Origin: Acidobacteriaceae bacterium
GTDB taxonomy: Bacteria > Acidobacteriota > Terriglobia > Terriglobales > Acidobacteriaceae
NCBI GenBank assembly: GCA_003152695.1
Contig: PMAT01000046.1
Coordinates: 21,732-82,161, forward strand
Direction: 5' to 3'
Length of the DNA stretch: 60,430 bases
This document shows, one piece after another, positions 1-51,590 of the stretch. Both the position numbers and the translations under genes were made by a program. The notes below the pieces were generated by a model that worked only from the letters and a program-made list of their open reading frames with translations, did not search any database and was not told where the DNA came from. Each line of letters starts with the position of its first letter. Within the stretch, counting starts at the first letter, position 1.

Positions 1-1
1 C

Positions 2-673
2 ATGAGCCGCGACGATCTGCTCAACACCAATTTCAAGATCATGAGCGATGTGGTGGGCAAGGTGGTGCAGTACTCGCCCAATTGCATCCTGATCATCGTC
101 TCCAACCCGCTCGACGCCATGGCGCAGGCGGCTTACAAGCTCAGCGGCTTCTCGCGCAATCGCGTGATCGGCATGGCCGGCATTCTCGACTCGGCCCGCT
201 TCCGCGCTTTCATCGCCCGGGAGCTGGATGTTTCCGTGGAGAACGTCACCGCGTTTGTCCTCGGCGGTCACGGCGACACCATGGTCCCGCTGCCGCGCTA
301 CTCGACGGTGGCGGGCATTCCCATCACCGAATTGATGGATGCAGCCACTCTCGCGCGCCTGGTGCAGCGCACCCGCGACGGTGGCGCCGAGATCGTCAAG
401 TACCTCAAGACCGGCAGCGCTTACTACGCGCCGTCGGCCGCGGTCGCAGAAATGGTCGAGGCCATCCTCAAGGACAAGAAGAAGATCGTGCCCTGCGCCG
501 CCTACCTGGAAGGCGAGTACGGTATCAAAGGGCTGTTCGTCGGCGTGCCCTGCAAGCTGGGCTCCAACGGCATCGAGAAAATTCTCGAGATCAAACTGAC
601 TCCGGAAGAGCAGGCCGCCTTGCAAAAGAGCGCCGACTCGGTGAAGGAGTTGGTGGGCGTCATCGAAGCGTAG
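2..673 (+). CDS. mdh: Malate dehydrogenase, 5'-truncated by window edge
   Basis: NAD-dependent malate/oxaloacetate interconversion of the TCA cycle, LDH-like type, cytosolic. Only the C-terminal 223 codons are visible; the first ATG is an internal Met, because the family normally has about 85-90 residues with the Rossmann glycine motif before it. Visible are the VSNPLD motif (fragment residues 33-38) and the GGHGDTMVP motif with catalytic His at fragment residue 90, followed by the conserved C-terminal EGEYGIKG strand. The gene ends in TAG at 671-673. A DUF4268 gene follows on the same strand 33 bp later and is probably unrelated in function. Confidence 0.93.
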
Positions 674-706
674 AGCTCGCAGGATGTGTGGCCGCCCCAA
701 GGCACT

Positions 707-1666
707 ATGAGCGAATTCGGTATCATAACGCGTGTTAAGCTCCGCGATGTGTGGCCCAAGGAGGCGGCTGACTTTACACCTTGGCTGGCTAGCAATATGA
801 CGGCTCTGGGCGACGCCCTGGGCATGGACCTCGAACTCAAGCAGCAAGAATCTCCGGTCGGCGATTTTTCTTTAGACCTTCTGGCACATGATGTCAACAG
901 CCGCCGAACGGTGGTGATCGAGAACCAGCTTGAACCCACCAACCACGACCACCTCGGCAAACTGCTCACCTATGCGGCTGGCCACAATGCTACCGTGGTC
1001 GTGTGGATTGCTCAGGAGATTCGGGAAGAGCACCGGCAGGCTTTGGACTGGCTGAACCAACATACTGACCAAGAACTTGAATTCTACGGCGTGGTGGTCG
1101 AGGTGCTCCGTATCGACCAGTCGAGACCCGCCTATGTGTTCAGACTTGTTGCCTTTCCAAACGAATGGCGAAAGGGCGTCGTCTCCGCCGTAGCCTCGCC
1201 GCGGGAGGAGGCATACCGTCTATTCTTCCAGCGTCTTATCGACGACCTTCGCGAGCGGCACAGGTTCACGGGTGCCAGAGTGGCGCAACTGCAGAGCTGG
1301 TACTCTTTTGCCACCGGCCATTCGGAGGCCTCGTACGGTTTCAGTTTTGCGAGAGGCGGAAAGGTCCGTGCCGATCTGTATATCGCCGGTGGGGACGCCA
1401 ATGAGAACAAAGAGTTGTTCGACCGGCTTGCTAGCGATAAGGAAAATATCGAAAAGGAATATGGTGCAGCTCTCGAATGGGAACGGCTCGATAACCGGGT
1501 CGCTTGCAGAATTGCTATCTATCGCTCCGGCACAATCGATGACGTTAAGTTGCACGATGAACTTCTCAAATGGTCTATCGAGCAACTTTTGAAGTTCAAA
1601 AGGGTCTTTGGTCCGAGGTTGTCTGCGCTCTCACATACGCAAGCGGACGTTTCATCCCCACCATGA
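707..1666 (+). CDS. DUF4268 domain protein with nuclease-like core
   Basis: A 319-residue protein of the DUF4268 family. The N-terminal part resembles the PD-(D/E)XK nuclease fold: a GDFSLDLL strand (about residues 52-59, candidate Asp57) is followed by VIENQLE (70-76, candidate Glu72 and Gln74), then a helix with [11 protein letters not shown]. The C-terminal half (about 170-300) carries the DUF4268 region. Proteins of this type often sit near restriction or defence genes; here the gene lies between mdh and a toxin-antitoxin island. Start choice: ATG 707 follows a short AAGG-like ribosome site; an upstream GTG at 686 is in frame but less likely. Exact activity is unknown. Confidence 0.8.
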
Positions 1667-1754
1667 TAGGTCGATCCCCAACTCCGGGTTCCCCTCCCAA
1701 GCCCCTCTTGCTGGGGTGGAATTTCGCAAGAGTGGACGGCGGCTTACGGCAAGG

Positions 1755-2177
1755 TTACACCTGCACGAGCGCGAGATCGGGAAAAGCCGCCCGATAAAGA
1801 CGATCGTCCAGTGTGAGTAGCCGATACCCGCGGTCGGCGGCATGAGCGCCAATCAAGAAGTCAGCCAAGATACGGCGCGGGCCAGGATCACGCTTTCCCT
1901 TTCGGCGTGCGGCGTATTTTTGAAAAGCCCGTCCCGCAGTGCGCCAGACCGCTTCCTGCAAGTTCCACTCGACGGCGATGCCGGTGTCGGTGAAGAAGGA
2001 AGTGAGAAATGCCTCGCTGCGGCCGGGCGCGGCCATTAGCTCAGCAAAGACCGGCGCGCTGATCGCCAAACCACCGTGTTGCAACGCGGCGTCCAACGCG
2101 AATTGTGCGGCCGCACTGACAGCCGGGTCGCGGTCCCAGAGAGCGATCATGATATTGGTATCGATGGAGGTTGTCAT
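1755..2177 (-). CDS. vapC: VapC-type PIN-domain ribonuclease toxin
   Basis: PIN-domain toxin of a type II toxin-antitoxin pair, predicted Mg-dependent RNase acting on cellular RNA. The 140-residue product begins MTTSIDTN with the first acidic ligand at Asp6 and has a conserved Glu in the APVFAEL helix, a DFLIGAHA motif and a C-terminal LTLDDRLY motif, the usual PIN acidic set. The start at 2177 overlaps the stop of the upstream AbrB-type antitoxin by ATGA, which points to translational coupling; an upstream in-frame ATG at 2201 would lie inside the antitoxin and is rejected. First toxin of a four-module island. Confidence 0.88.
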   Translation of the reverse strand: MTTSIDTNIMIALWDRDPAVSAAAQFALDAALQHGGLAISAPVFAELMAAPGRSEAFLTSFFTDTGIAVEWNLQEAVWRTAGRAFQKYAARRKGKRDPGPRRILADFLIGAHAADRGYRLLTLDDRLYRAAFPDLALVQV

Positions 2178-2413
2178 CGCCCGCGCGTCTCTTTGGTCCA
2201 ACGATTAATTCCCGCCCGGCCGGGCGGGATTCCGGGATTTCCGATCCCCCGATACTTTGCAAATGGGCTTTCCGTTCGCGCGGGGCGGACGCGGACTCCC
2301 GCTTCATCACTTTCAAAGATCAACTGGTCGCCCGTTCGCACACCCAGGGCCCGGCGAATCTCGCGCGGCACCGTAATCTGGCCCTTGCTCGTTATCCTTG
2401 CCTGCTTTTGCAA
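2174..2413 (-). CDS. vapB: AbrB/SpoVT-type antitoxin (VapB)
   Basis: A 79-residue antitoxin with an N-terminal swapped-hairpin AbrB domain: the ITSKGQITVPREIRRALGV motif covers residues 7-25. The C-terminal tail (RGIGNPGIPPGRAGINRW) is the typical toxin-binding segment of this VapB subgroup. It should neutralise the coupled PIN toxin and autorepress the operon. The stop overlaps the toxin ATG. The coding region contains an 18-bp perfect palindrome at 2211-2228 that is explained by the Pro-Pro-Gly-Arg-Ala-Gly codons. It is divergent from the second VapBC module, leaving about 160 bp for both promoters. Confidence 0.88.
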   Translation of the reverse strand: MQKQARITSKGQITVPREIRRALGVRTGDQLIFESDEAGVRVRPARTESPFAKYRGIGNPGIPPGRAGINRWTKETRGR

Positions 2414-2537
2414 CCTGCGCCTCCAACATTTCTTACTTTATCACAGCACTCCTTACTTTGGTGCCGGGGTGCCCGTTGTCTTCCAGATCAGTCTGACCCG
2501 GTAGATGAACTGACTCTCCGTTGAACAATACACAAAA

Positions 2538-2556
2538 ATGTGAGATGTTTACACAT
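2538..2556. promoter_or_regulatory. Possible VapB operator (CACA/TGTG half-sites)
   Basis: Just upstream of the second vapB start, ATGTG at 2538-2542 and CACAT at 2552-2556 form an inverted repeat with a 9-nt spacer, and a further CACA at 2531-2534 pairs with the same TGTG. Antitoxins of this type usually bind such palindromes to autoregulate their promoter. This is a position-based inference; the half-sites are short. Confidence 0.3.
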
Positions 2557-2571
2557 AGAGGGTTACGACTT

Positions 2572-2775
2572 GTGCGAACCAATATCGAGATTGACGATGA
2601 TTTGATGCGGCGGGCGATGCGCCGCAGCGGAGCGGCGACGAAGAAAGCGGCGGTGGAAGAGGCCCTTCGGCTTCTGGTGAAGATGCACGAACAGACTTCG
2701 ATTCGCAGATGGCATGGCAAAGTGCAATGGGAAGGCAACTTGAAGCAACTGCGCCGCAGCCGAGTTCCGCAATAG
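2572..2775 (+). CDS. vapB: VapB-family antitoxin (RHH type)
   Basis: A 67-residue antitoxin starting at GTG 2572 as (M)RTNIEIDDDLMRRAMRRSG, the hallmark N-terminus of the VapB/DUF2191 group. A clear AGAGGG ribosome site at 2557-2562 lies 9 nt before the GTG, which decides the start against the in-frame TTG at 2521. The KKAAVEEALRLLV helix (about residues 23-35) completes the ribbon-helix-helix-like DNA-binding part; the Arg/Lys-rich C-terminus should contact the toxin. The vapC gene follows after 9 bp on the same strand. Confidence 0.85.
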   Translation: MRTNIEIDDDLMRRAMRRSGAATKKAAVEEALRLLVKMHEQTSIRRWHGKVQWEGNLKQLRRSRVPQ

Positions 2776-2784
2776 GCGGCGCCC

Positions 2785-3180
2785 ATGGTCATTGTTGACA
2801 CCACAGTCTGGATCGACTACCTGGGCAACGTAAGCAATCGCGAGACGAATTGGCTGATTCGCGAATTGGGGCGGCAACCGCTGGGGTTGACTGACATCGT
2901 CCTATGTGAAGTCTTGCAGGGAATTCGAAGCGATGCCGCCTTCGCCGGGGTGCGGCATGATCTTGAGAAGCTCTACATTTTTAATACCGGCGGAAGCGAG
3001 TTGGCCGTGGCCGCCGCCCAGAACTATCGTCGCCTCCGGCAAGCAGGGTATACGGTGCGCACAACCATCGATTGCCTGATCGCCACATTCTGTTTGGAGG
3101 CCGGGCATGCGCTGCTTCATCGCGACCGCGATTTCGATCCCTTCGAGGAATATTTTGGGTTGCGCGTGGTGCATCCGTAA
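2785..3180 (+). CDS. vapC: VapC-type PIN-domain toxin
   Basis: A 131-residue PIN ribonuclease. Conserved acidic residues are visible in MVIVDTTVWIDYL (Asp5), CEVLQGIR (Glu), TIDCLIATFCLE (Asp) and HRDRDFDPF (Asp). It is the cognate toxin of the antitoxin ending 9 bp upstream, in the VapB-VapC arrangement common in soil bacteria. It differs in sequence from the first VapC of the island (ending at 1755), so the two modules are separate acquisitions rather than a duplication. It converges on a lone HigA-like gene. Confidence 0.9.
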   Translation: MVIVDTTVWIDYLGNVSNRETNWLIRELGRQPLGLTDIVLCEVLQGIRSDAAFAGVRHDLEKLYIFNTGGSELAVAAAQNYRRLRQAGYTVRTTIDCLIATFCLEAGHALLHRDRDFDPFEEYFGLRVVHP

Positions 3181-3232
3181 GACGGTTTACCCTTGCCAGC
3201 ACTGGCGTCCTTTGCTGGGACGGAGATTTTGC

Positions 3233-3559
3233 CTAGGCCACTGCCCGGCTGGTGCGCACCTGCAAGCGGACACCTTCCCGCCGCTGAAGATAGGCAACGA
3301 TTCCAAACAGGTTGCTGGCGGTTGGATTACCCTTTGGCCCAAACATCTGGTCCAGGGTCTTTACGTGCAGTTTCGTATCTGCGGCCAGCTTGGGAAACCC
3401 CACCGTGGCATTGATGTAGTCGCGCAAGAGATCCTTCCCCAGCGCAACCTCTCCGGCGAGAAGGCTTTCCACGGCATCGCGGAGCAGCCCCTTGCGAAAG
3501 GCAGCGTCGCGTCGCACTCGCGCCTGTACGGTTTCTCTGAAATCTCGTGTTAGAACCAT
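3233..3559 (-). CDS. HigA-like addiction-module antidote, no toxin beside it
   Basis: A 108-residue protein with the N-terminus MVLTRDFRETVQARVRRDAAFR and a C-terminal helix-turn-helix-like segment (LHVKTLDQMFGPKGNPTASNL), matching HigA/addiction-module antidote regulators. Such genes normally follow a HigB/RelE toxin on the same strand, but the 53 bp between this start and the MazF-like stop at 3613 has no room for one. It may be an orphan regulator or could be co-transcribed downstream of the MazF pair. The start ATG at 3559 gives the family-typical N-terminus. Confidence 0.75.
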   Translation of the reverse strand: MVLTRDFRETVQARVRRDAAFRKGLLRDAVESLLAGEVALGKDLLRDYINATVGFPKLAADTKLHVKTLDQMFGPKGNPTASNLFGIVAYLQRREGVRLQVRTSRAVA

Positions 3560-3612
3560 TCCTCACTCCGCGGTTCTTTAGCGAATGCTTCTTCATCAGC
3601 ATCCGTCGCTGA

Positions 3613-3969
3613 CTATGTAAGGTCAAGAGCGATCTTGACCGCAGTTTCAATCCTCTGCATGGATGCCGATGCCAGCGTGCCCAGCGGAGGGTAGATCACC
3701 AGTTGCTTTTCCACCGTGGTCGGTTGGTCACACTTCACCCACGAGTCGCGGAGCAAGCCGCCTTCTGCGGCCTTCAGCTTGGGACGCAGTGAAAACGCCT
3801 TGTGCTCGGCGGTGGAGATGGGCAATACACATACGTCCAGAGCGTGTGCGTTCAGGCTGTCGCTGGAAATCACCAGCGCGGGACGTTCCTTGTCAAGGTC
3901 GATCAGGCAAACTTCGCCCCGCCTCGGATACCATTGCGTAGGCTTGGTTCCGCTTCGCCAGGCAGTCAT
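3613..3969 (-). CDS. MazF/PemK-family endoribonuclease toxin
   Basis: A 118-residue toxin of the MazF/PemK/CcdB fold. Visible are the RRGEVCLIDLDKERPALVIS segment (residues 16-35), where family members read RGEVWLVDLDP-x-RPALVIS, and a VLPISTAEH strand (about 48-56). The predicted role is sequence-specific mRNA cleavage. Its ATG overlaps the stop of the upstream antitoxin by 4 nt (ATGA, 3966-3969), the arrangement expected for a coupled toxin-antitoxin pair. Confidence 0.85.
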   Translation of the reverse strand: MTAWRSGTKPTQWYPRRGEVCLIDLDKERPALVISSDSLNAHALDVCVLPISTAEHKAFSLRPKLKAAEGGLLRDSWVKCDQPTTVEKQLVIYPPLGTLASASMQRIETAVKIALDLT

Positions 3970-4214
3970 GGGCGTGACCAGGATTTAAGGCCGGCCTTGT
4001 GGAAGGCGCGGCGCTCCTGCCGGTCTTCCGCCGCGCTGCTGAAGAACTGCGCCGCTTCCTGGTAGAGGCTGGCCTTGCGCTCCGTCTCCAGAGCGTACTT
4101 CAGCAACTGGTTGACCCGTTCGCTGGCGGAGTTGCTCCCCTTGGTGCGTTCAACCTCTGCCAGAACATTCTGGTCGAGCGAAAAAGACCGGGTTTTCCTG
4201 ACTGCGGACCGCAT
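3966..4214 (-). CDS. Antitoxin of the MazF/PemK pair
   Basis: An 82-residue small protein starting MRSAVRKTRSFSLDQNVLAE, with a short beta strand followed by helices (SASERVNQLLKYALETERKA) like ribbon-helix-helix antitoxins, and a charged C-terminal tail (EDRQERRAFHKAG). It is translationally coupled to the downstream MazF-like toxin. An in-frame ATG at 4301 would add 29 residues with no family resemblance and is rejected. The family is assigned by partner and shape rather than by a strong motif. Confidence 0.72.
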   Translation of the reverse strand: MRSAVRKTRSFSLDQNVLAEVERTKGSNSASERVNQLLKYALETERKASLYQEAAQFFSSAAEDRQERRAFHKAGLKSWSRP

Positions 4215-4325
4215 AGCTGTGGTTCTCCCAAAGCTATTGTGATTTCTATTAGGTATGTTGTCAAGATTCCTACAAGGAATGTTGGTCAACGAAATGGCCA
4301 CGATGGGATGCCCCGCCGAAGCTGG

Positions 4326-4718
4326 TTAAAGCGTTCTGGCGGTAAAGATCAGATACACCGCCAATATAATTCCGAAAAGCGCAGCAATCACGCCCAGAAC
4401 GGTAACGATTGCGCCAGCCGGCTGGAACTCGTCTGCGTTGAGCCGGTTCATGGTTGTGCGGTATCGGACCAACGATACCAGCGCCATGAAGATACCCATA
4501 ACTATGAAACCGACCCCGATCGCCAGCGACATCCCGCTCTGACGTTCGCCATTGCCCTGCATGCGCAAGAATTCGCGCAAGGTAATTCCAAACCTTGCCA
4601 CCACGAAGCCAAACACGATAATGCTGATGCTGGTGCGAATCCACGCTAGAAAGGTGCGCTCGTTCGCAAGGTGGTCGGCGGCTTTACCGGATTGGGTGGA
4701 AGGAACTGGAGCAGTCAT
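4326..4718 (-). CDS. DUF202/YidH-family inner-membrane protein
   Basis: A 130-residue protein of the YidH/DUF202 family. The N-terminal ANERTFLAWIRTSISII motif (about residues 18-34) is diagnostic. Three hydrophobic segments follow: about 28-46, 64-84 and 100-126. Function in bacteria is not established. It stands alone, with the toxin-antitoxin island downstream and a 390-bp spacer upstream. Confidence 0.85.
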   Translation of the reverse strand: MTAPVPSTQSGKAADHLANERTFLAWIRTSISIIVFGFVVARFGITLREFLRMQGNGERQSGMSLAIGVGFIVMGIFMALVSLVRYRTTMNRLNADEFQPAGAIVTVLGVIAALFGIILAVYLIFTARTL

Positions 4719-5110
4719 AGGTACTTATGCCGGGCTGGCCGCGCATAACCGCATAACCATGTTATCGCGCAAGGCTTTATCGGCCATCGCACACAGTAAA
4801 CCAGCGCAAAGTAGCATATAGGTGCTATACAAATGGCGAAATTAGCACCACTCTTGGGCGAATTCAACTCCCAGAAGTGGCTCCAAGGGCCCTAGGAAGC
4901 CCCAGGATCGACGAAGACCCTTTGGACTGGCCTGAGAGGGGCATCTGGGAGCTAAAGGCCCGCCAGCGGTCACGCAGACACTCTGGCGTACGTTTCCGGT
5001 TTTGGGAAATCCAGTATGCGGACGGGCTCGCGCCGGACGGTCTTGGGACCATGCTGTTCGGATTACCGAGCCGAACACGCCCCAATGCCGCTCGTCTTCG
5101 TTCTACAGCA
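4719..5110. other. Gene-free spacer
   Basis: About 390 bp between the YidH-like start and the PIN-TRAM stop. Short open frames exist on both strands but none has a ribosome site with a recognisable product. No tRNA-like cloverleaf, tmRNA tail or RNase P signature was seen. It presumably contains the YidH-family promoter; otherwise nothing recognised. Confidence 0.4.
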
Positions 5111-6202
5111 CTACTCGTGCTTGGGCGTTTCCGGAACCACGACTGCCGGGACAGGCGGAGACGCCACTTTCTTAAAGTCCGGTCGTGGCTCGATGGGACG
5201 CGCCGGCGCGCTCACGCTGCGCTCGTCAAACTTGCCGAAAATCATCTTCCCGGCGGTGGTCTGTAGAACCGACGTCACCGATATATCGATGTTCCTGCCG
5301 ATCATCTTACGGGCGTTGTCCACCACCACCATGGTTCCGTCGTCCAGATAGGCCACACCCTGGTTGTACTCCTTGCCTTCCTTCAGGATGAAAACCTTCA
5401 TGATTTCGCCGGGCAGGACAATGGGCTTTAACGAGTTCGCCAGCTCGTTAATGTTCAGCACCGCGACTCCTTGCAGCTGGGCCACTTTATTGAGATTGAA
5501 ATCGTTGGTGACGATCTTGCTTTCGTACACTTTGGCCAGCTCGATCAGCTTCAGGTCCACTTCGCGCACTGCGGGGAAGTCGTCTTCTACGATCTGCACC
5601 TGCAAAGTCGCGATCTTCTGGATTCGCTGCAAGATGTCAAGGCCGCGGCGGCCGCGGTTGCGCTTCATGGAGTCAGCCGAGTCGGCCACCAACTGAAGTT
5701 CGCGCAGCACGAACTGTGGAATGACGATCACTCCATCGAGGAAACCGGTTTCGGCGATGTCGGCGATGCGGCCATCGATGATGACACTGGTGTCGAGGAT
5801 CTTGTGGCTCCGCTTGGACTGTTTCTCGCCGCCAAAAATGCCGCCCAGCGCCGCCAGATTGAGCAGGTCGCCCTTGCCGGCGCCCACCACCAGACCTACA
5901 TAGGCCATGATCAACATTACGAAAAGCTGCAGAAAGCTTTGCGTCGGACCTTCGTGAATGCTGTTGCGGATGACGAGACTGAAAAGGTAGGCGCCTGCGA
6001 TTCCGAGGATGCTTCCAATGGCCGCGCCGATAAGCCGCTTCAGGCTGACGCGTCTCAGGCGGAGCTCAAATAGGACCACTGCGATTCCGAAAAGCACTCC
6101 CACCGCTGCTGCGGGCCATCGGTTCAACCCAAGCGGACGCAGTTCATAACTTGCAACTGCTGTAATGAGGACGAATAAGATCCGTATGAATACCAGGTCC
6201 AA
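5111..6202 (-). CDS. Membrane PIN-TRAM domain protein (YacL-like)
   Basis: A 363-residue protein of the PIN/TRAM (YacL) family. Four hydrophobic segments occupy about residues 4-115; then a PIN domain begins at [16 protein letters not shown] (about 134-149, acidic site Asp137) and runs through [12 protein letters not shown] (about 230), followed by a TRAM domain (about 255-315) and a Pro-rich tail. The family is thought to act on RNA at the membrane; in Firmicutes and Acidobacteriota it often neighbours ispD/F or stands alone. Start ATG at 6202 gives a membrane N-terminus. Nucleic-acid target unknown. Confidence 0.88.
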
Positions 6203-6493
6203 GCGACACCTCCACCAAGCGGTCCAGGCGTCTGCAGTGGGTGAAAGTGCTCCGGGGATATAGGAAGAAAATGATGCCGGTAGCGCACTCCCAAATCCAA
6301 ACGCGTCGGGCAGGCCTCGACTTCGCTCGCTCCGCTAAGTAACCACCTCGGGGCATATGAAAAAAATGCGCCCCGACCCGCCCAACCGCGGCGGGACTAT
6401 TACTGAGTAGCCGAAGTATATACCAATTCGGGACTTATTCCGCGACGCACTTGCCTCTCAATTGAGGCGGGTTCCAATTTGGGCGAAGCGCGC

Positions 6494-6676
6494 TTGGTGG
6501 AAGCCCCCTGCTTCAGCAGGGGAGCCGGACTTTAGTCCGGCGAAAAGAGTTCGATTTTGAAAATGGGCTTTAGCCCTGGATTTTCAAATGCCGGCGCTAA
6601 AGCGCGTGATCCAGACCGCTATTTTTCCGGAGCGCTGAAGCGCTCCTCCCCCCATAAATGCGGGGGCTCCCACCAT
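6494..6676. repeat. Palindrome-chain element, copy A (TIR-bounded)
   Basis: 183-bp copy of an element present three times in this window. It starts TTGGTGGAAGCCCCC and ends with its near-inverse (GGGGGCTCCCACCA). Between the ends lies a chain of short palindromes: CCCCTGCTTCAGCAGGGG, CCGGACTTTAGTCCGG, GGGCTTTAGCCC, GCGCTAAAGCGC, GGAGCGCTGAAGCGCTCC, and a CATAAATG-centred stem. It has no open reading frame of its own. It lies beyond the 3' end of the Yip1 gene, in a 540-bp spacer upstream of the divergent PIN-TRAM gene. Confidence 0.85.
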
Positions 6677-6744
6677 GAAGCACAATGCACACCATTCTTC
6701 CGCAGCCGGTGAAGCCGTGCCCGGATACAAAACGCTTCTCGTTC

Positions 6745-7491
6745 TCAGGCGAACGCCGCCGCAAGTCCCGCGCCGCCCAGCACTACCACTGCCCACCAGC
6801 CGAAGGCCACCGCCATGCAGGTCCCCCGCTTCAGCTTGGTTACGCAGCCGTAGCCCAGCCCAGCCAGCGCAATCGCCCAGATGGTGAACACATCCAGCGA
6901 AGTCGCTATGGAGTAAAGGAAGTGGGAACTGGGGTCAACCAGAGCGCTCAAGTTGCTGGCGATCGGGTTCTGGAAGGTGAAGGCTTCACCCCCTCCCACA
7001 CTGATCGCCAGTATGGCAATTAGCGCTTTGATGATCCCGGGCAGCGATGCGTACATGCTGATGGCCATGCACTGATTAAAAGTGAGGCGCTGACCGAAGC
7101 CAAAGTTGAATGTCCCCAGTAACACACCGGCCATGATGGCAATGATGATCAATAAGAGCACCGGATAGGCGTAACCAATCACTCGATTGACCTTGACGAT
7201 GGTCTGAATCTGCGCCGCGCGCTGATCGGGAGACAACTGATCAAGCTTCTCCGCCTGTTTTGGGGAGAGCGCCATTTGGTTCTCGACGACTTTTTCCATG
7301 CCGAGTTTCTTGTCCACCACCAATACCATCGCCACGCTGGCGATGGCCAGCAAGATCCAGGGCACCCACCAGCTGGCGCTGCGCCGGATGTCGGAGAACG
7401 TTTTGCTGGGAGCGATGAAGGTGTCCACGACGCGTTCGACCTGGGAAAGAGGCGGTTGCTCCACGGGGGCGACAGGACTGGCAGAACTCAT
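6745..7491 (-). CDS. YIP1-family membrane protein
   Basis: A 248-residue integral membrane protein with a soluble N-terminal stretch (SQVERVVDTFIAPSKTFSDI, about residues 16-35, typical of bacterial Yip1-domain proteins) and about five hydrophobic segments at about 42-60, 107-130, 145-170, 190-215 and 225-247. Bacterial members have no proven role. The gene is divergent from the tol-pal cluster, from which it is separated by a 360-bp spacer holding the tol promoter. Confidence 0.8.
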   Translation of the reverse strand: MSSASPVAPVEQPPLSQVERVVDTFIAPSKTFSDIRRSASWWVPWILLAIASVAMVLVVDKKLGMEKVVENQMALSPKQAEKLDQLSPDQRAAQIQTIVKVNRVIGYAYPVLLLIIIAIMAGVLLGTFNFGFGQRLTFNQCMAISMYASLPGIIKALIAILAISVGGGEAFTFQNPIASNLSALVDPSSHFLYSIATSLDVFTIWAIALAGLGYGCVTKLKRGTCMAVAFGWWAVVVLGGAGLAAAFA

Positions 7492-7792
7492 GAGTCTCCT
7501 TTTGCTTCAGACGAAGTACCGGCCTGACTCGACGAGCGCGGCCGAAATTAGTTGCAAATCAAACGCGGATTCGGCGAGATTGTACCACTGGCGTCTTGCT
7601 GGAGGGCGCGGTCACAGCCCTAGACTGGCGCGCACGTCCTTCATGAGCAGCATCAGGTGCAATTCAAAACCGGGACAACTCCGGTTGGCGAATGGTTGTC
7701 AAAATGGCGGCCAACGCCCCGCTTGCCGGCCTTGGCGCGAATTCTCAGCATTTTAACAGTCCGTAACTACCGAGGAACCTCGCTGCGCAAAC

Positions 7793-7821
7793 CTGATTCT
7801 GCCTCGTCAAATGCTTATAAT
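7793..7821 (+). promoter_or_regulatory. Putative sigma70-type promoter of the tol cluster
   Basis: A perfect TATAAT at 7816-7821 lies 34 nt before the tolQ ATG, with CTGATT at 7793-7798 as a weak -35 (three matches to consensus) at 17-bp spacing. The rest of the 7492-7855 spacer shows nothing else recognisable. Confidence 0.42.
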
Positions 7822-7855
7822 GCGAAGTTAGCGAAAGTCGAGCCTGTTGCGTCCA

Positions 7856-8569
7856 ATGAATGTGCATTTTTTCTTGTTTGCCTCGGCCATCGGCGGTGAA
7901 ATTTCCGGGCTGATTGAATCCAGTGGTCTGGTCGCCAAAGCTGTCCTCTTAATTCTGCTGCTGTTCAGCCTGGCATCGTGGGCCATCATTTTCTCCAAGT
8001 GGGGCCTGTTCCGGCGGGCGCGGGTGCAGAGCAATCGCTTCATACGCGCGTTTCGCAAGTCGGAGCGGCTGCAAGATGTCGCCGCGGTTGCGGAACAATT
8101 CAAGCCCAGCCCGCTGATCGCCGTGTTCGACGGCGCCTATGACGAACTGCGCAAGCAGGCGCCGCATCCCATTCGCATGGCCGCTTTGCAGCGCGCCACC
8201 CAGATTGCGGCCTCGGAAGAGCTGAGCCGCCTGGAGAGCCGCCTGCCCTGGCTGGCAACCACCGGAGCGGTCACGCCCTTCATCGGCCTGTTCGGCACGG
8301 TGTGGGGCATTATCGACGCCTTCCACGGTCTCGGGACCGCTGGCGGAGCCACGTTGCGCGCGGTCGCGCCCGGCATTTCTGAAGCGCTGATTACCACCGC
8401 GGCCGGCTTGTTCGCGGCCATTCCCGCCGTCATCGCCTACAACATGTTCACCCAGCACATTCGCGAGTTCGGGGCGCGCATGGACGATTTCAGCCTGGAA
8501 CTGATCAACGAGGTCGAGCGCGCCCAGACGGGCAGCGCTCGCGCGGTCGAAAGTGTGGAGCGGCGGTAA
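7856..8569 (+). CDS. tolQ: TolQ/ExbB-type proton channel protein
   Basis: Inner-membrane MotA/TolQ/ExbB proton-channel subunit that energises the Tol-Pal system. The 237-residue protein has a first membrane segment at about 21-46, a cytoplasmic loop with the RLESRLPWLATTGAVTPFIG motif, and two further segments around 133-157 (GLFGTVWGIIDAF) and 170-196 (SEALITTAAGLFAAIPAVIAY). An ATG at 7856 is preferred over the TTG at 7847. The tolR start overlaps its stop (TAATG). First gene of the cluster tolQ, tolR, tonB/tolA-like, tolB, pal, cpoB. Confidence 0.92.
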   Translation: MNVHFFLFASAIGGEISGLIESSGLVAKAVLLILLLFSLASWAIIFSKWGLFRRARVQSNRFIRAFRKSERLQDVAAVAEQFKPSPLIAVFDGAYDELRKQAPHPIRMAALQRATQIAASEELSRLESRLPWLATTGAVTPFIGLFGTVWGIIDAFHGLGTAGGATLRAVAPGISEALITTAAGLFAAIPAVIAYNMFTQHIREFGARMDDFSLELINEVERAQTGSARAVESVERR

Positions 8570-8997
8570 TGGCTTTCACCAATTCACGGGGCCGCACTCA
8601 AACCTCGCTGGCCGACATCAACATCACCCCGCTGGTGGACGTGGTGCTGGTGTTGCTGATCATCTTCATGGTCACCGCGCCCATTTTGCAGTCGGGCATT
8701 GAGGTCGCGATTCCTCGCACCCGGACCGTAAAGGAGATCACCGAGGAGCGCCTGGTGATCACCATCGACCGCCAGCAGCGCGTGTTCCTGAACAACCAGC
8801 CCATCAACATCAATCAGATCGGCGCTCAGTTGCACCAGAAGATCCGCGACCCTGAGGGCCAGTCGGTGTTCGTGCGCGCCGACGAAAACGTGCCCTTCGG
8901 CGCCTTCGCAACCGTGATGGATGCCGTGAAACAGTCGGGCATCACCAACGTGAGTATCGTGACCCAACCGCTGGAGAAGCATGGCAGCCGACGTTGA
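8569..8997 (+). CDS. tolR: TolR/ExbD-type protein
   Basis: A 142-residue biopolymer-transport protein that forms the second half of the proton-driven motor with TolQ. A short cytoplasmic N-terminus is followed by one membrane helix (INITPLVDVVLVLLIIFMVT, about residues 18-37) carrying the essential Asp at 24, then a periplasmic domain ending with the AVKQSGITNVSIVT strand. It overlaps tolQ by 1 nt and the following TonB/TolA-like gene by 17 nt, so all three are probably coupled in translation. Confidence 0.93.
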   Translation: MAFTNSRGRTQTSLADINITPLVDVVLVLLIIFMVTAPILQSGIEVAIPRTRTVKEITEERLVITIDRQQRVFLNNQPININQIGAQLHQKIRDPEGQSVFVRADENVPFGAFATVMDAVKQSGITNVSIVTQPLEKHGSRR

Positions 8998-9769
8998 CAT
9001 CTTTCCGACCGGGGGCAATCTTCGCGCTCCCTTGATCGGCTCGGTGACACTGCATGTCGCGCTGTTCGCCTTGGCTTTGTTCGGCTATCTGATCCCCAGC
9101 ACGCGGGGCGAGAATTGGGGCGGTACGGGTGGGACCGGCGGCGCGATGAGCGCTACGCTGGTGAGCAGCATCCCATTGCCGGTGCCACCGACCCAGACCC
9201 AAAACGTGTTGGCCAACGAATCCAAGGGGCTGACGCAAACGCCGCCGAAGGAAATTCCGAGAGAAGAGCCCAAGGCGATTCCGATTCCCGCGCCCGAGGC
9301 CAAGAAGAAGGGACCACAGGAGTCCGCGCAAAAAAAGCCGCCGCCAAAAGAAATTGCCAAGGTGGAGGACAACCGGATTCCGTTTGGCCAGGGAGGGCCG
9401 GTCAGCGGCCCTTATGGGTCGTTCGCGGCGGGCGGAGCGAAAGGCGGCCTCAGCTTTACCGGAGGAACTGGAGATTTTGGCAGCCGCTTCGGCTGGTATG
9501 TGGATGGGGTGCGCCGAAAGGTGTCGGAAAACTGGCTGAAGTATGAGGTTGATCCCAATATCGATACGGCGCGCAGGGTTTACATTTATTTTGAGATCAC
9601 GCGCGCGGGGCAGCCGGAAAACATACGCGTGGAACAGTCCAGCGGTATTCCGTCGCTGGATCAGTCAGCGATGCGGGCGCTCGAACGCATCGATACCTTT
9701 GGCCCGCTGCCTCCGGAGTACGCAGGCCGTTATGTCGCCGTCGAGTTCTGGTTCGACTATCGGCGGTGA
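8981..9769 (+). CDS. TonB/TolA-like energy transducer
   Basis: A 262-residue protein with one N-terminal membrane anchor (about residues 17-40), a periplasmic Pro/Lys-rich linker (about 85-125, with the repeated PKE/PREEPK pattern), a Gly-rich stretch and a C-terminal TonB-like domain (RRKVSENWLKYEV through ALERIDTFGPLPP, about 170-262). By position it takes the place of TolA between tolR and tolB, linking the TolQR motor to TolB/Pal. Whether it is TolA or TonB in function cannot be told from sequence alone. It overlaps tolR. Confidence 0.85.
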   Translation: MAADVDIFPTGGNLRAPLIGSVTLHVALFALALFGYLIPSTRGENWGGTGGTGGAMSATLVSSIPLPVPPTQTQNVLANESKGLTQTPPKEIPREEPKAIPIPAPEAKKKGPQESAQKKPPPKEIAKVEDNRIPFGQGGPVSGPYGSFAAGGAKGGLSFTGGTGDFGSRFGWYVDGVRRKVSENWLKYEVDPNIDTARRVYIYFEITRAGQPENIRVEQSSGIPSLDQSAMRALERIDTFGPLPPEYAGRYVAVEFWFDYRR

Positions 9770-9862
9770 GGTGGGTTGTATGGTTGGCCCGTTTCGGTTG
9801 AAGATACCAACCGTTGGAAGGGCGCGGCGTTACAGGCTGCTGAAAAAGTCTGTGGGAGGCTT

Positions 9863-10027
9863 TTGGTGGAAGCCCCCTGCTTTAGCAGGGGGAGCTGGAC
9901 TTTAGTCCAGCGGAGAAGGAGTCGATTTTGAAATGGGCTTTAGCCCCGGGATTTCTCGATGCCCGGCGCTAAAGCGCGTGATCAAAGCCGAACTTTCCCC
10001 CCGCATAAATGCGGGGGCTTCCACCAA
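9863..10027. repeat. Palindrome-chain element, copy B (perfect 15-bp TIRs)
   Basis: 165-bp copy with perfect 15-bp terminal inverted repeats: TTGGTGGAAGCCCCC at 9863-9877 and its exact complement at 10013-10027. It has the same internal order of palindromes as the other copies but lacks the GGAGCGCTGAAGCGCTCC module. It sits inside the tol cluster between the TonB/TolA-like gene and tolB; its sequence forms a spurious in-frame extension upstream of the true tolB start. Confidence 0.9.
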
Positions 10028-10073
10028 AGAAGCGCACGCCAAACAAGGAAGGAACTTTGGGGAATTGGGAAGC

Positions 10074-11405
10074 ATGAAACGATACAGAGCAATTCTATTG
10101 GTGTTGTTCGTCCTGTTTGCCATTGCAGCTATGTCGGCTCAGGACTGGATTCGCACCGGCACCGGACTTGGGGTTGAGAAGGTGCGTCTCGCCGTGCCCG
10201 ACTTCAAGCTGGTCACCACCGATACGGGCACGCAGAATCTGTCCGCGATCTTCAATGTCACTCTGTGGAATGATCTGCAGACGGCGGGGATTTTCGACAT
10301 GGTGTCCAAGAGCTTTTATCCCTTGGCAGTGCCGGGCGCTCCCCAGGAAGTGCATCTCAATGACTGGAGCAGCCCGCCTCCCAATGCCAGCATGTTGGCC
10401 TTCGGCAATCTGGGCATCCAAGGCGGATCGCTGAATGTCCAAGGCTGGTTGTACGACACCAAGAATCCGCAGTCGCCGCAGGTGCTGGGCAAGCAATATC
10501 GCGAACCGGCCACCGATGCCAATGCCCGCCTGATCGCCCATCGCTTCGCCGACGAAATTATCCTTCGCCTGGGCGGCGGCATCGCCGGGGTTGCCGAAAC
10601 CAAGCTTTATTTCGTCAGCAACCGCAGCGGCTCCAAGGAAATCTGGCAGATGGACTACGACGGCGCTGGTCAGAAGCAGCTGACTCACCAGGGAAGCATT
10701 GCGCTATCGCCGCACGTCTCACCCGACGGCACACGCGTAGCCTACTCCGGCGTGACTAAGGAAGGCTGGCAAATCCTGATGTACTCCCTGGAACTCGGCC
10801 GTCCCGTCAGCTTCCAGCACTTCGGCGGAGACAACTACTCACCCGCATGGTCCTCCGACGGCCAAACCATTGCGTTCTCGTCGTCGCGCACCGGCAACAC
10901 GGAAATCTATTCCGTCAGCTCCACGGGCGGAAGTGCGCGGCGCCTTACCGAGAGCAAAGGACCGGATGTTTCGCCCACCTGGAACCCCAAGACGAACGCG
11001 CAGATTGCCTGGGTTGCGGGGCGCACCGGGCTACCTCAGATCTACACCATGGCATCTGACGGTACGAACGTGGTTCGCGTGACCGATCAGGGCTATGCCG
11101 TATCGCCGTCATGGTCGCCGAATGGCCAGTTCCTGGCGTTCGCGTGGATCCGTCATTATGGTCCGGGCGCGCCGGGGGCCAGCGACATCTATGTGATGGA
11201 CGTGGCCAGCAAACAATGGGCGCAACTGACCCATGAGGAGGGGCGCAACGATTTTCCGTCATGGTCGCCGGACGGACGGCATATCGTGTTTCAGTCGAGC
11301 CGCACTGGCCGGGTGCAGATTTATTCCATGCTCGCCGATGGAAGCGAGGTGCGGCAATTGACGACTGCGGGAGAAAACACGCAGCCGAATTGGAGTTTTA
11401 AATAG
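10074..11405 (+). CDS. tolB: TolB periplasmic beta-propeller protein
   Basis: A 443-residue Tol-Pal periplasmic protein. The signal peptide is MKRYRAILLVLFVLFAIAAMS. An N-terminal TolB domain (LAVPDFKL through about residue 170) precedes a beta-propeller with PD40-type blades such as WSPDGRHIVFQSSRTG and WSSDGQTIAFSSSRTG. The start at ATG 10074 is set by the signal peptide; the open frame runs back to 9933 only because it reads through repeat copy B. TolB bridges Pal and the inner-membrane complex during outer-membrane constriction. The final PNWSFK sits at the end of the last blade. Confidence 0.93.
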   Translation: MKRYRAILLVLFVLFAIAAMSAQDWIRTGTGLGVEKVRLAVPDFKLVTTDTGTQNLSAIFNVTLWNDLQTAGIFDMVSKSFYPLAVPGAPQEVHLNDWSSPPPNASMLAFGNLGIQGGSLNVQGWLYDTKNPQSPQVLGKQYREPATDANARLIAHRFADEIILRLGGGIAGVAETKLYFVSNRSGSKEIWQMDYDGAGQKQLTHQGSIALSPHVSPDGTRVAYSGVTKEGWQILMYSLELGRPVSFQHFGGDNYSPAWSSDGQTIAFSSSRTGNTEIYSVSSTGGSARRLTESKGPDVSPTWNPKTNAQIAWVAGRTGLPQIYTMASDGTNVVRVTDQGYAVSPSWSPNGQFLAFAWIRHYGPGAPGASDIYVMDVASKQWAQLTHEEGRNDFPSWSPDGRHIVFQSSRTGRVQIYSMLADGSEVRQLTTAGENTQPNWSFK

Positions 11406-11482
11406 GGTTTAGTCCCTGCACGCTTATGGGCGCAGAAGGAGCACACTTCGGCCCTGGCATGACCTGATGCGAGTGCTCTCGC

Positions 11483-12244
11483 ATGAAAGTGAAGGAAGAA
11501 AACTTGAAGCTAACTAGGAATCAATGGATCCGGATTATCGTTGCCCTCGCCGTGGTGCTTGCCGTAGGTGCCTGTGGCAAAAAGAAAGTGGCCTCCGCAC
11601 CGCCGCCTCCGCCGCCCCCGGCCCCGGCGCCTACTGCCTCATTGACCGCCAATCCCAACACCATTCAAGCGGGCCAGGCGAGCACGTTGACGTGGAGGAC
11701 CGACTACGCCACCGACGTCACCATCGATCAATTGGGCAAGGTCGATCCCAGCGGTTCGCGGGCGGTGACCCCGGCGGAGTCAACCACCTATCACCTGGTG
11801 GCGAAGAACGATTCCGGCACGCAGGAGGCCACGGCGCGCATTACCGTGGTATCGTCTCCGCCTCCGCCTCCTCCGCAAACCTCCAGCGGCACCGATGAGC
11901 AGTTGTTTTCCGAGAACATGAAAGATGTGTTCTACGACTACGACAGCTATGATATTTCGGCGCAGTATCAACAGGTTTTGCAGGCGGATGCGCGATTTCT
12001 GCAGCAGCACCCCAACATGAAGTTCACCATTGAGGGCCACTGCGACGAACGCGGTTCCACCGAGTACAACCTGGCTCTGGGCGACAATCGTGCTAACGCC
12101 GCCAAGCAGATTTTGGCGCAGCTCGGTATCTCGTCCGACCGTATGCGCACTATTAGCTACGGCAAGGAAAAACCGTTCTGCACGGAAAGCAACGAGTCGT
12201 GCTGGCAGCAAAACCGTCGCGCTCACTTCGTTTATCAGAAGTAG
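11483..12244 (+). CDS. pal: Pal peptidoglycan-associated lipoprotein with Ig-like insert
   Basis: Outer-membrane lipoprotein that binds peptidoglycan. The lipobox LAVGAC places the lipidated Cys at residue 31. A Pro-rich stretch follows, then an Ig-like domain (SLTANPNTIQAGQASTLTW through ARITVV, about 49-122), a second Pro-rich linker, and the OmpA domain with TIEGHCDERGSTEYNLALGDNRA-type peptidoglycan-binding residues (about 172-195). The Ig-like insert is absent in E. coli Pal. ATG 11483 is used here; a TTG at 11504 has a better ribosome site (GAAGGAAG at 11491-11498) and would shorten the product by 7 residues without losing the signal. Confidence 0.9.
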   Translation: MKVKEENLKLTRNQWIRIIVALAVVLAVGACGKKKVASAPPPPPPPAPAPTASLTANPNTIQAGQASTLTWRTDYATDVTIDQLGKVDPSGSRAVTPAESTTYHLVAKNDSGTQEATARITVVSSPPPPPPQTSSGTDEQLFSENMKDVFYDYDSYDISAQYQQVLQADARFLQQHPNMKFTIEGHCDERGSTEYNLALGDNRANAAKQILAQLGISSDRMRTISYGKEKPFCTESNESCWQQNRRAHFVYQK

Positions 12245-50984: not shown

Positions 50985-51590
50985 ATGTCGATGATGACTC
51001 CTACGCTACCAACCCCGGGGACGCTTCCCAAAGTCGGGCAACGGGCGTGGGATTTTGAGCTTCCGGGCTCTACCGGAGCGATACGCCGGTTATCTGAGTT
51101 GGCGGCTGGTCGTCCGCTGGTTCTGCTGTTCTATCGCGGCCATTGGTGACCGTTTTGTCTCCGCCAGTTGGCGGAATATCGCGATCACTACGAAGCTATT
51201 CGTGCCGCCGGCGCCAACTTGGTGGCTGTTTCCGTGGATGCCCCAGAGAAGTCGGAGGCGGTTCGGAAGCAACTGCGGCTGCCCTTCCCCATCCTGTCCG
51301 ACACGGAGCGCCGCGTCGTTCAGGAATGGGGCATTTACAATCCGAAGGAAAAAGGAGGCATTGCCAAGCCGGCGGTGTTCATCCTGGCGTCCGATCGTAC
51401 CGTGCGCTTCGACTCTGTAGACGACGTTAGCGATCGGGTTCCCGCAGCCGATGTTGTCAGTATGCTGCAGGAGCGCAGGGAAACGATGCCGACAGGGCGC
51501 AAGCGGCTGGTCCCAAGCCCGGCAACGTTCTTGCGCGCCATCCGCAACGCGCTGCACCTCGGCGCGCGCCAGCCAAGAGCGCAGACATAG
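50985..51590 (+). CDS. Peroxiredoxin-like AhpC/TSA protein with in-frame UGA (probable selenoprotein)
   Basis: A 201-residue thioredoxin-fold protein if UGA at 51147-51149 is read as selenocysteine (residue 55). The sequence reads LVLLFYRGHW-U-PFCLRQLAEY: in AhpC/TSA relatives this position is the peroxidatic Cys of a W-C-P-x-C motif, and resolving Cys58 is kept. The frame is open and conserved on both sides: KVGQRAWDFELPGSTGAIRR before, and ANLVAVSVDAPEKSEAVRK, PFPILSDTERRVVQEWG and AKPAVFILASDRTVRF after. A hairpin 10 nt downstream fits a bacterial SECIS. ATG 50985 is the likely start; 50991 is possible. The alternative is a nonsense mutation. selA, selB and selC are not in the window. Confidence 0.85.
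51147..51175 (+). promoter_or_regulatory. Candidate bacterial SECIS element
   Basis: After UGA (51147-51149), a 6-bp stem UCCGCC/GGCGGA (51160-51165 with 51170-51175) closes an AGUU tetraloop. The loop starts 16 nt after the UGA and has a G in its second position, which fits the published bacterial SECIS model (apical loop about 16-37 nt from UGA, G among the first two loop bases). It lies within the coding sequence. Confidence 0.65.

Follow-up and report, generated by a model that had tools for sequence, protein, structure and literature searches.

An open frame interrupted by a single UGA

In the DNA analysed here, a window of 60,430 nucleotides from an Acidobacteriaceae bacterium, one gene is split by ordinary gene calling at an in-frame TGA, and the question raised by this locus is whether that codon ends the protein or is read as selenocysteine (Sec) and, in the latter case, what the protein does. 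The gene emerges as a well-supported selenoprotein, very probably intact, whose apparent stop very probably specifies Sec (Table 1). A sequence-only reading had described a single frame of 201 codons broken by the TGA alone, and this is borne out by the sequence: the frame starts at the ATG at 50985 and stops at the TAG at 51588-51590, and its sole internal stop is codon 55, in the context VLLFYRGHW-U-PFCLRQLAE. The relation to AhpC/TSA proteins proposed in the same reading holds as well, since the read-through product gives a single match to PF00578 (AhpC-TSA; 108.6 bits, cut-off 26) over residues 17-142, spanning the TGA. None of the NCBIfam models was matched by the window protein above the model's own cut-off. 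The second Cys of the motif is intact as stated earlier, giving a UxxC motif (U55-P-F-C58).

Table 1. Location of the predicted selenoprotein gene and its features in the window.
Feature	Position	Strand	Basis
Prx-like UxxC selenoprotein gene (predicted)	50985..51590	+	201 residues, ATG to TAG; PF00578 match; frame conserved
UGA codon, Sec55 (predicted), FYRGHW-U-PFC	51147..51149	+	TGA, TGC or TGT in all scored relatives
Cys58 codon, second position of UxxC	51156..51158	+	opposite the peroxidatic Cys in alignments with true peroxiredoxins; C in 28/28 rows of alignment A1
SECIS-like hairpin UCCGCC-AGUU-GGCGGA	51160..51175	+	fold; counts of AGUU hairpins; codons 60-63 without synonymous change
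Pro129 codon	51369..51371	+	aligned with peroxiredoxin Arg at the thioredoxin cis-Pro site; precedes a strand of the model

The sequence after the TGA had been judged as well preserved as that before it, and codon differences to a 79% identical orthologue (L054) agree, with no decay downstream: the 54 codons before the TGA hold 16 synonymous and 14 other differences, and the 145 codons after it hold 31 and 27, respectively, third codon positions being the most changed on both sides. Both the frame and the TGA are kept in a paralogue of the same genome (77% identity) and in orthologues of other assemblies. Given the PF00578 match across the TGA, the relatives which keep frame and TGA, and the synonymous type of change on both sides, a chance frame, a recent nonsense mutation and an isolated sequencing error can all be dismissed.

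The upstream neighbour is an M28 peptidase gene with a transferrin-receptor dimerisation domain, and the downstream neighbour, on the opposite strand, encodes a RibD_C protein. The same two genes flank the gene in five of 13 loci compared (L023, L053, L025, L054 and L026, where the pairs L023/L053 and L025/L054 each probably represent one place retrieved twice); they are absent from the other eight, some of which do not extend far enough to include them, and the neighbours at the 13 loci gave no hint of function. The gene is identical over all 606 bases to a copy in PLYW01000055.1 (L053 3001-3606), in a surrounding alignment of 3.2 kb with 96.5% identity, which may reflect either recent exchange or strong constraint.

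Selenocysteine machinery and exchange between Sec and Cys

The host assembly (4.5 Mb in 141 contigs, 99% complete) has as its closest relatives in named records the Acidobacteriaceae metagenome assemblies palsa_354, palsa_254 and CP_BM_RX_15. A search for the sel genes had been proposed as a check on the sequence-only reading, and all were found in this genome: selA (556 bits, cut-off 268), selB (393 bits, cut-off 242), selD, and a main tRNA-Sec (66.6 bits, anticodon TCA, i.e. UCA). The 3' end of this tRNA reads ...CTTCC-G-CCA, with a discriminator G, and its variable arm is long, both of which are identity elements for SerRS (PMC7609411). The selD gene was recovered as two pieces, each above the cut-off, separated by a run of N. 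It lies at about 2327-3075 on the minus strand of contig C141 (L135) and itself contains a TGA within a stretch AAG-U-ASK, which we take to be the catalytic one. Because of this in-frame TGA, the selD of this genome is probably a selenoprotein gene too. A hairpin with a GGU loop can be drawn by hand for it, and differs from the minimum-energy fold of that stretch. SelD stands in published tables of selenoproteins (PMC1794560 and others).

Opposite codon 55, all scored relatives carry TGA, TGC or TGT and no other codon, matches gapped at this codon or not spanning it having been dropped from the scoring. The Cys homologues, expected to read W-C-P-F-C, carry W-C-P-x-C in nearly all rows. Around codon 55 there are 44 distinct TGA contexts and 99 distinct TGC/TGT contexts of 105 bases each. 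The 200 family genomes contain at least 44 TGA-bearing matches, and in all 44 of those listed (13 + 31) the TGA falls at codon 55, a count in which 31 of the loci had been picked because a TGA was already reported inside them and only its place was examined; these matches differ from the 44 distinct contexts by one identical copy, left out of the latter, and by L055, which was included. Counting related Prx-like proteins together with this one, the TGA form occurs in at least 41 of the 200 genomes, eight with a match of at least 45% identity and most with relatives of only 30-41%; the TGA persists at codon 55 down to about 30% identity. All 41 listed genomes with the TGA form have selA above the cut-off, compared to 117 of the 200 in the sample (hypergeometric, 8e-12). 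Sec and Cys forms of one fold thus stand side by side, so that the contribution of Sec to a redox protein can be studied by natural comparison.

The exchange reaches beyond the family. In a phylum sample of 149 genomes, 23 show a match at a threshold of 1e-18, several TGA-bearing matches belong to other families, and the ten new loci obtained have TGA (eight) or TGC (two) at codon 55. The consensus of the group is FYRG-x-W-U-P-[FY]-C. Eight related loci sharing the motif LRGTW-U-PNC (L148, L152, L153, L154, L155, L164, L166 and L167) probably form another group of Sec-containing Prx-like proteins; in six of the eight, all except L152 and L166 by the rule used, an AGUU-loop hairpin lies some 28 bases past the TGA. 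In other relatives the second Cys is absent: L165, a TGA form, has U-P-K-D, and L056, a Cys form from Desulfobacteraceae, has C-P-A-D. Some relatives may thus use a one-Sec or one-Cys chemistry.

A conserved hairpin downstream of the UGA

Directly 3' of the UGA, as looked for in a selenoprotein gene, lies a hairpin with a putative SECIS role, its loop beginning 19 bases after the U of UGA. A 60-base stretch around the TGA folds more stably than shuffled sequences (z = -3.45; none of 200 shuffles as good), as do the 39 bases from the TGA onward (z = -2.74; 4 of 200 as good). Measured against synonymous shuffles, mean fold stability is z = -1.21 in the 44 TGA contexts and -0.10 in the 99 Cys contexts. 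A hairpin with an AGUU loop and five or more pairs is found in 38 of the 44 TGA contexts; by this rule six lack it, as do all 99 Cys contexts. The loop starts at 19 or 28 bases, and the stems differ between groups. The AGUU rule was framed with the sequences already in view, and these counts are not independent events, since TGA and Cys forms differ in kinship. If any loop is allowed, stems of five or more pairs occur in all 44 TGA contexts and also in 39 of the 99 Cys contexts, so that much of the contrast comes from the loop rule. A looser GU-loop rule retrieves 40 of 44 TGA and 4 of 99 Cys contexts in this first set. At the eight TGA loci that belong to other families in the phylum and played no part in devising the rule, a hairpin of the AGUU type appears once, while seven have one by the GU-loop rule, with the loop GGU in six; the two Cys loci of the same sample have neither an AGUU-rule nor a GU-loop hairpin.

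Synonymous sites provide a cleaner test of the hairpin than such counts. Among eight of the nine close relatives (L026 is not in A1, the author-chosen alignment of 28 sequences), the hairpin codons 60-63 (R-Q-L-A), those four of codons 59-64 whose amino acid is identical in all eight, show 0 synonymous differences in 112 pairwise comparisons. In contrast, 51 other conserved codons, with Met, Trp and codon 55 left out, show 746 in 1428 (52%) in the same relatives. This implies that the RNA, and not the protein alone, is under selection. The AGUU-loop hairpin is sharply defined and constitutes a testable SECIS candidate for the SelB of this group.

The sel genes of the host, the exchange between TGA and Cys codons, the link with selA, the AGUU hairpin and the lack of synonymous change in its codons together make it very likely that Sec is in fact inserted at codon 55. 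SelA would convert Ser-tRNA-Sec to Sec-tRNA-Sec using selenophosphate from SelD, and SelB would bind the hairpin immediately following the UGA and deliver Sec-tRNA-Sec to this codon. The claim that the gene is a selenoprotein with its UGA at a redox Cys site has passed the computational checks on Cys homologues and sel genes.

Active site and probable chemistry

The sequence-only reading had placed the UGA at the peroxidatic Cys, and here the alignments speak against it. In the Aeropyrum PrxQ (2cx3, identical in sequence to 4gqf) the residues opposite U55 and C58 are the Ser and the Cys of SxxC, and in the Sulfolobus PrxQ (2ywn, 4g2e) they are the Thr and the Cys of TxxC. The peroxidatic position is thus that of C58, and the identity of U55 as peroxidatic residue was rejected on the 2cx3 and 2ywn alignments; U55 instead corresponds to the N-terminal Cys of a thioredoxin-type CxxC. 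In the same peroxiredoxin alignments Pro129 falls on the Arg of A-K-R-A-V-F, and this position holds 25 P, 2 R and 1 A in the 28 rows of A1. In peroxiredoxins the N-terminal Cys of CxxC has been lost (TxxC) and an Arg replaces the cis-Pro of thioredoxins (PMC2757866). With U55 at the position of the lost Cys and Pro129 at that of the cis-Pro, the protein is of the thioredoxin type at its active site.

The predicted structure (mean pLDDT 87.9) places U55 just ahead of a helix (56-67) and P129 just ahead of a strand (130-134). The nearest solved folds are true peroxiredoxins (3hjp, Z 23.4, 1.6 A over 152 residues; second 5epf, also a peroxiredoxin, Z 23.1, 1.9 A over 151 residues), and since this is so despite the thioredoxin-type marks, the fold alone leaves the reaction undecided. 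A UxxC thiol:disulfide oxidoreductase is nevertheless a likelier function than a peroxidase, judging from the alignment of U55 with the Thr/Ser of TxxC, of C58 with the peroxidatic Cys and of Pro129 with the Arg. Such a product would combine a peroxiredoxin fold with a thioredoxin-type U-P-F-C site and a Pro at the cis-Pro position. The selenolate of U55 may attack a disulfide or another oxidised substrate, C58 would then resolve the selenenylsulfide, and a thiol donor would presumably reduce the U55/C58 pair.

If Sec is inserted, a true Sec peroxidase, with U55 or C58 attacking hydroperoxides as in PrxU, is a possible but doubtful alternative. It would fit the PF00578 match and the nearest folds, the location of C58 at the place of the peroxidatic Cys, and the three A1 rows with Arg or Ala at position 129. 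It is at odds with the replacement of the TxxC Thr/Ser by U and of the catalytic Arg by Pro129 (PMC2757866), and the window protein scores only 36 bits with the PrxU model NF040737 (cut-off 270).

Relation to known selenoproteins

The gene had been put forward as a probable new selenoprotein. It is new as a gene, while its kind is not, since Prx-like PF00578 selenoproteins with UxxC stand in published tables, and the list of selenoprotein kinds is not extended by it. A Prx-like thiol:disulfide oxidoreductase is listed in a selenoprotein table of 2006 (PMC1794560), 'Prx-like 1' (pfam00578, UxxC, 225 sequences) in an ocean survey of 2008 (PMC2398784), and Prx-like selenoproteins again in tables of 2022 (PMC9312934) and 2026 (PMC13188914). 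A published example of the UxxC kind is WP_010940744.1. Going by Pfam family and motif, the gene is a new member of this Prx-like UxxC kind. It shares with the published UxxC/UxxU proteins ('Prx-like 1') the PF00578 domain, Sec in UxxC, many Cys homologues and a predicted redox role, but its group is marked by the consensus given above, the comparison being by family and motif. For Acidobacteria, four selenoproteins of three families were reported in 2006 (PMC1794560), and one acidobacterium is described with three selenoprotein genes, whose names are not given in that passage (PMC12013277). In the literature searched on selenoproteins of Acidobacteria/Acidobacteriota, which lay mostly outside subscription journals, no description of this gene was found among titles and the opening lines of abstracts.

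Other families with a similar domain are more distant. The AhpC/TSA selenoprotein with UxxS (cd02970 in PMC13188914; pfam13911 in PMC9312934) likewise has an AhpC/TSA-type redox domain with Sec first in the motif, whereas the present group has UxxC, with C58 invariant in A1, and the window protein reaches 20.7 bits with PF13911 (cut-off 27). The Sec peroxiredoxin PrxU has the same fold and Pfam family, but its Sec comes last (TxxU) and not first; of the marks of peroxiredoxins and PrxU, the window protein lacks both a T/S-x-x-C/U motif with the catalytic residue last and the Arg at the cis-Pro site. The SelL-related redox protein model (NF040769) has a similar domain and scores 47.6 bits, below its cut-off of 120. 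The ResA-type thiol-disulfide oxidoreductases (NF002854) share a two-Cys motif of the CxxC type, and 22 of the 28 members of A1 match this model at 1e-10 or better; they differ in that the window protein scores 40.7 bits (cut-off 170) and has peroxiredoxins as its nearest solved folds.

Other readings of the UGA

A reading of the UGA as Cys, Ser or Trp, by a tRNA-Cys-like or suppressor tRNA with anticodon UCA or by plain read-through, is very unlikely. The genome does contain a second tRNA-Sec-like sequence, whose anticodon is TCA and which lies 0.6 kb from the paralogue, and selC-like tRNA-Cys and allo-tRNAs are described in bacteria, the allo-tRNAs also in Acidobacteria (PMC7609411). The SerRS identity elements of the main tRNA-Sec, the presence of selA in every listed genome with the TGA form, and a conserved hairpin, as expected under SelB-driven decoding, led us to reject this reading. 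Even less probable is a pseudogene, in which a Cys-type gene acquired a nonsense mutation and passed it on by descent: ordinary reading does end at the TGA, but the constant place of this codon in all 44 listed TGA matches, down to about 30% identity, the undecayed downstream sequence, the conservation of the hairpin at synonymous sites and the selA link dismiss it. A sequencing or assembly error in a TGC or TGT codon, conceivable in an assembly of 141 contigs, has a negligible probability and was rejected, the same TGA being present in the paralogue, in PLYW01000055.1 and in PLBW01000193.1 (record alignments with the window 90-97% identical).

A second copy on contig C109

The paralogue, with its own TGA, is located at 7237-7842 of contig C109 and is 77% identical in protein and 82% in DNA to the window gene. 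The contig (L133, positions 1-11993, 12 kb) carries the end of a group II intron at 1-114 and a gene for an HTH protein. On one side of the paralogue are an rve-domain transposase, whose Mu-type C-terminal domain scores just under the cut-off, and an AAA ATPase, while on the other side are the ABC-3C genes PF20283 and PF20131 (CTD7 protein, Middle Component 3).

The second tRNA-Sec-like sequence lies at 8425-8510 (47.5 bits, gathering score 47). It aligns with the true selC over 70 bases, 69 of them identical, with one gap, in a stretch that begins at the anticodon stem and runs through to the CCA end; its 5' half differs from selC, and the acceptor stem still largely pairs. In the simplest reading, an integrated element left this sequence behind as an attachment-site copy of the selC 3' part. 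More speculatively, and with little probability, the C109 copy might be a mobile selenoprotein module, in which an element carries a Sec-containing thiol-oxidoreductase and its own tRNA-Sec beside an ABC-3C defence system; if so, the capacity to decode selenoproteins could spread with the element.
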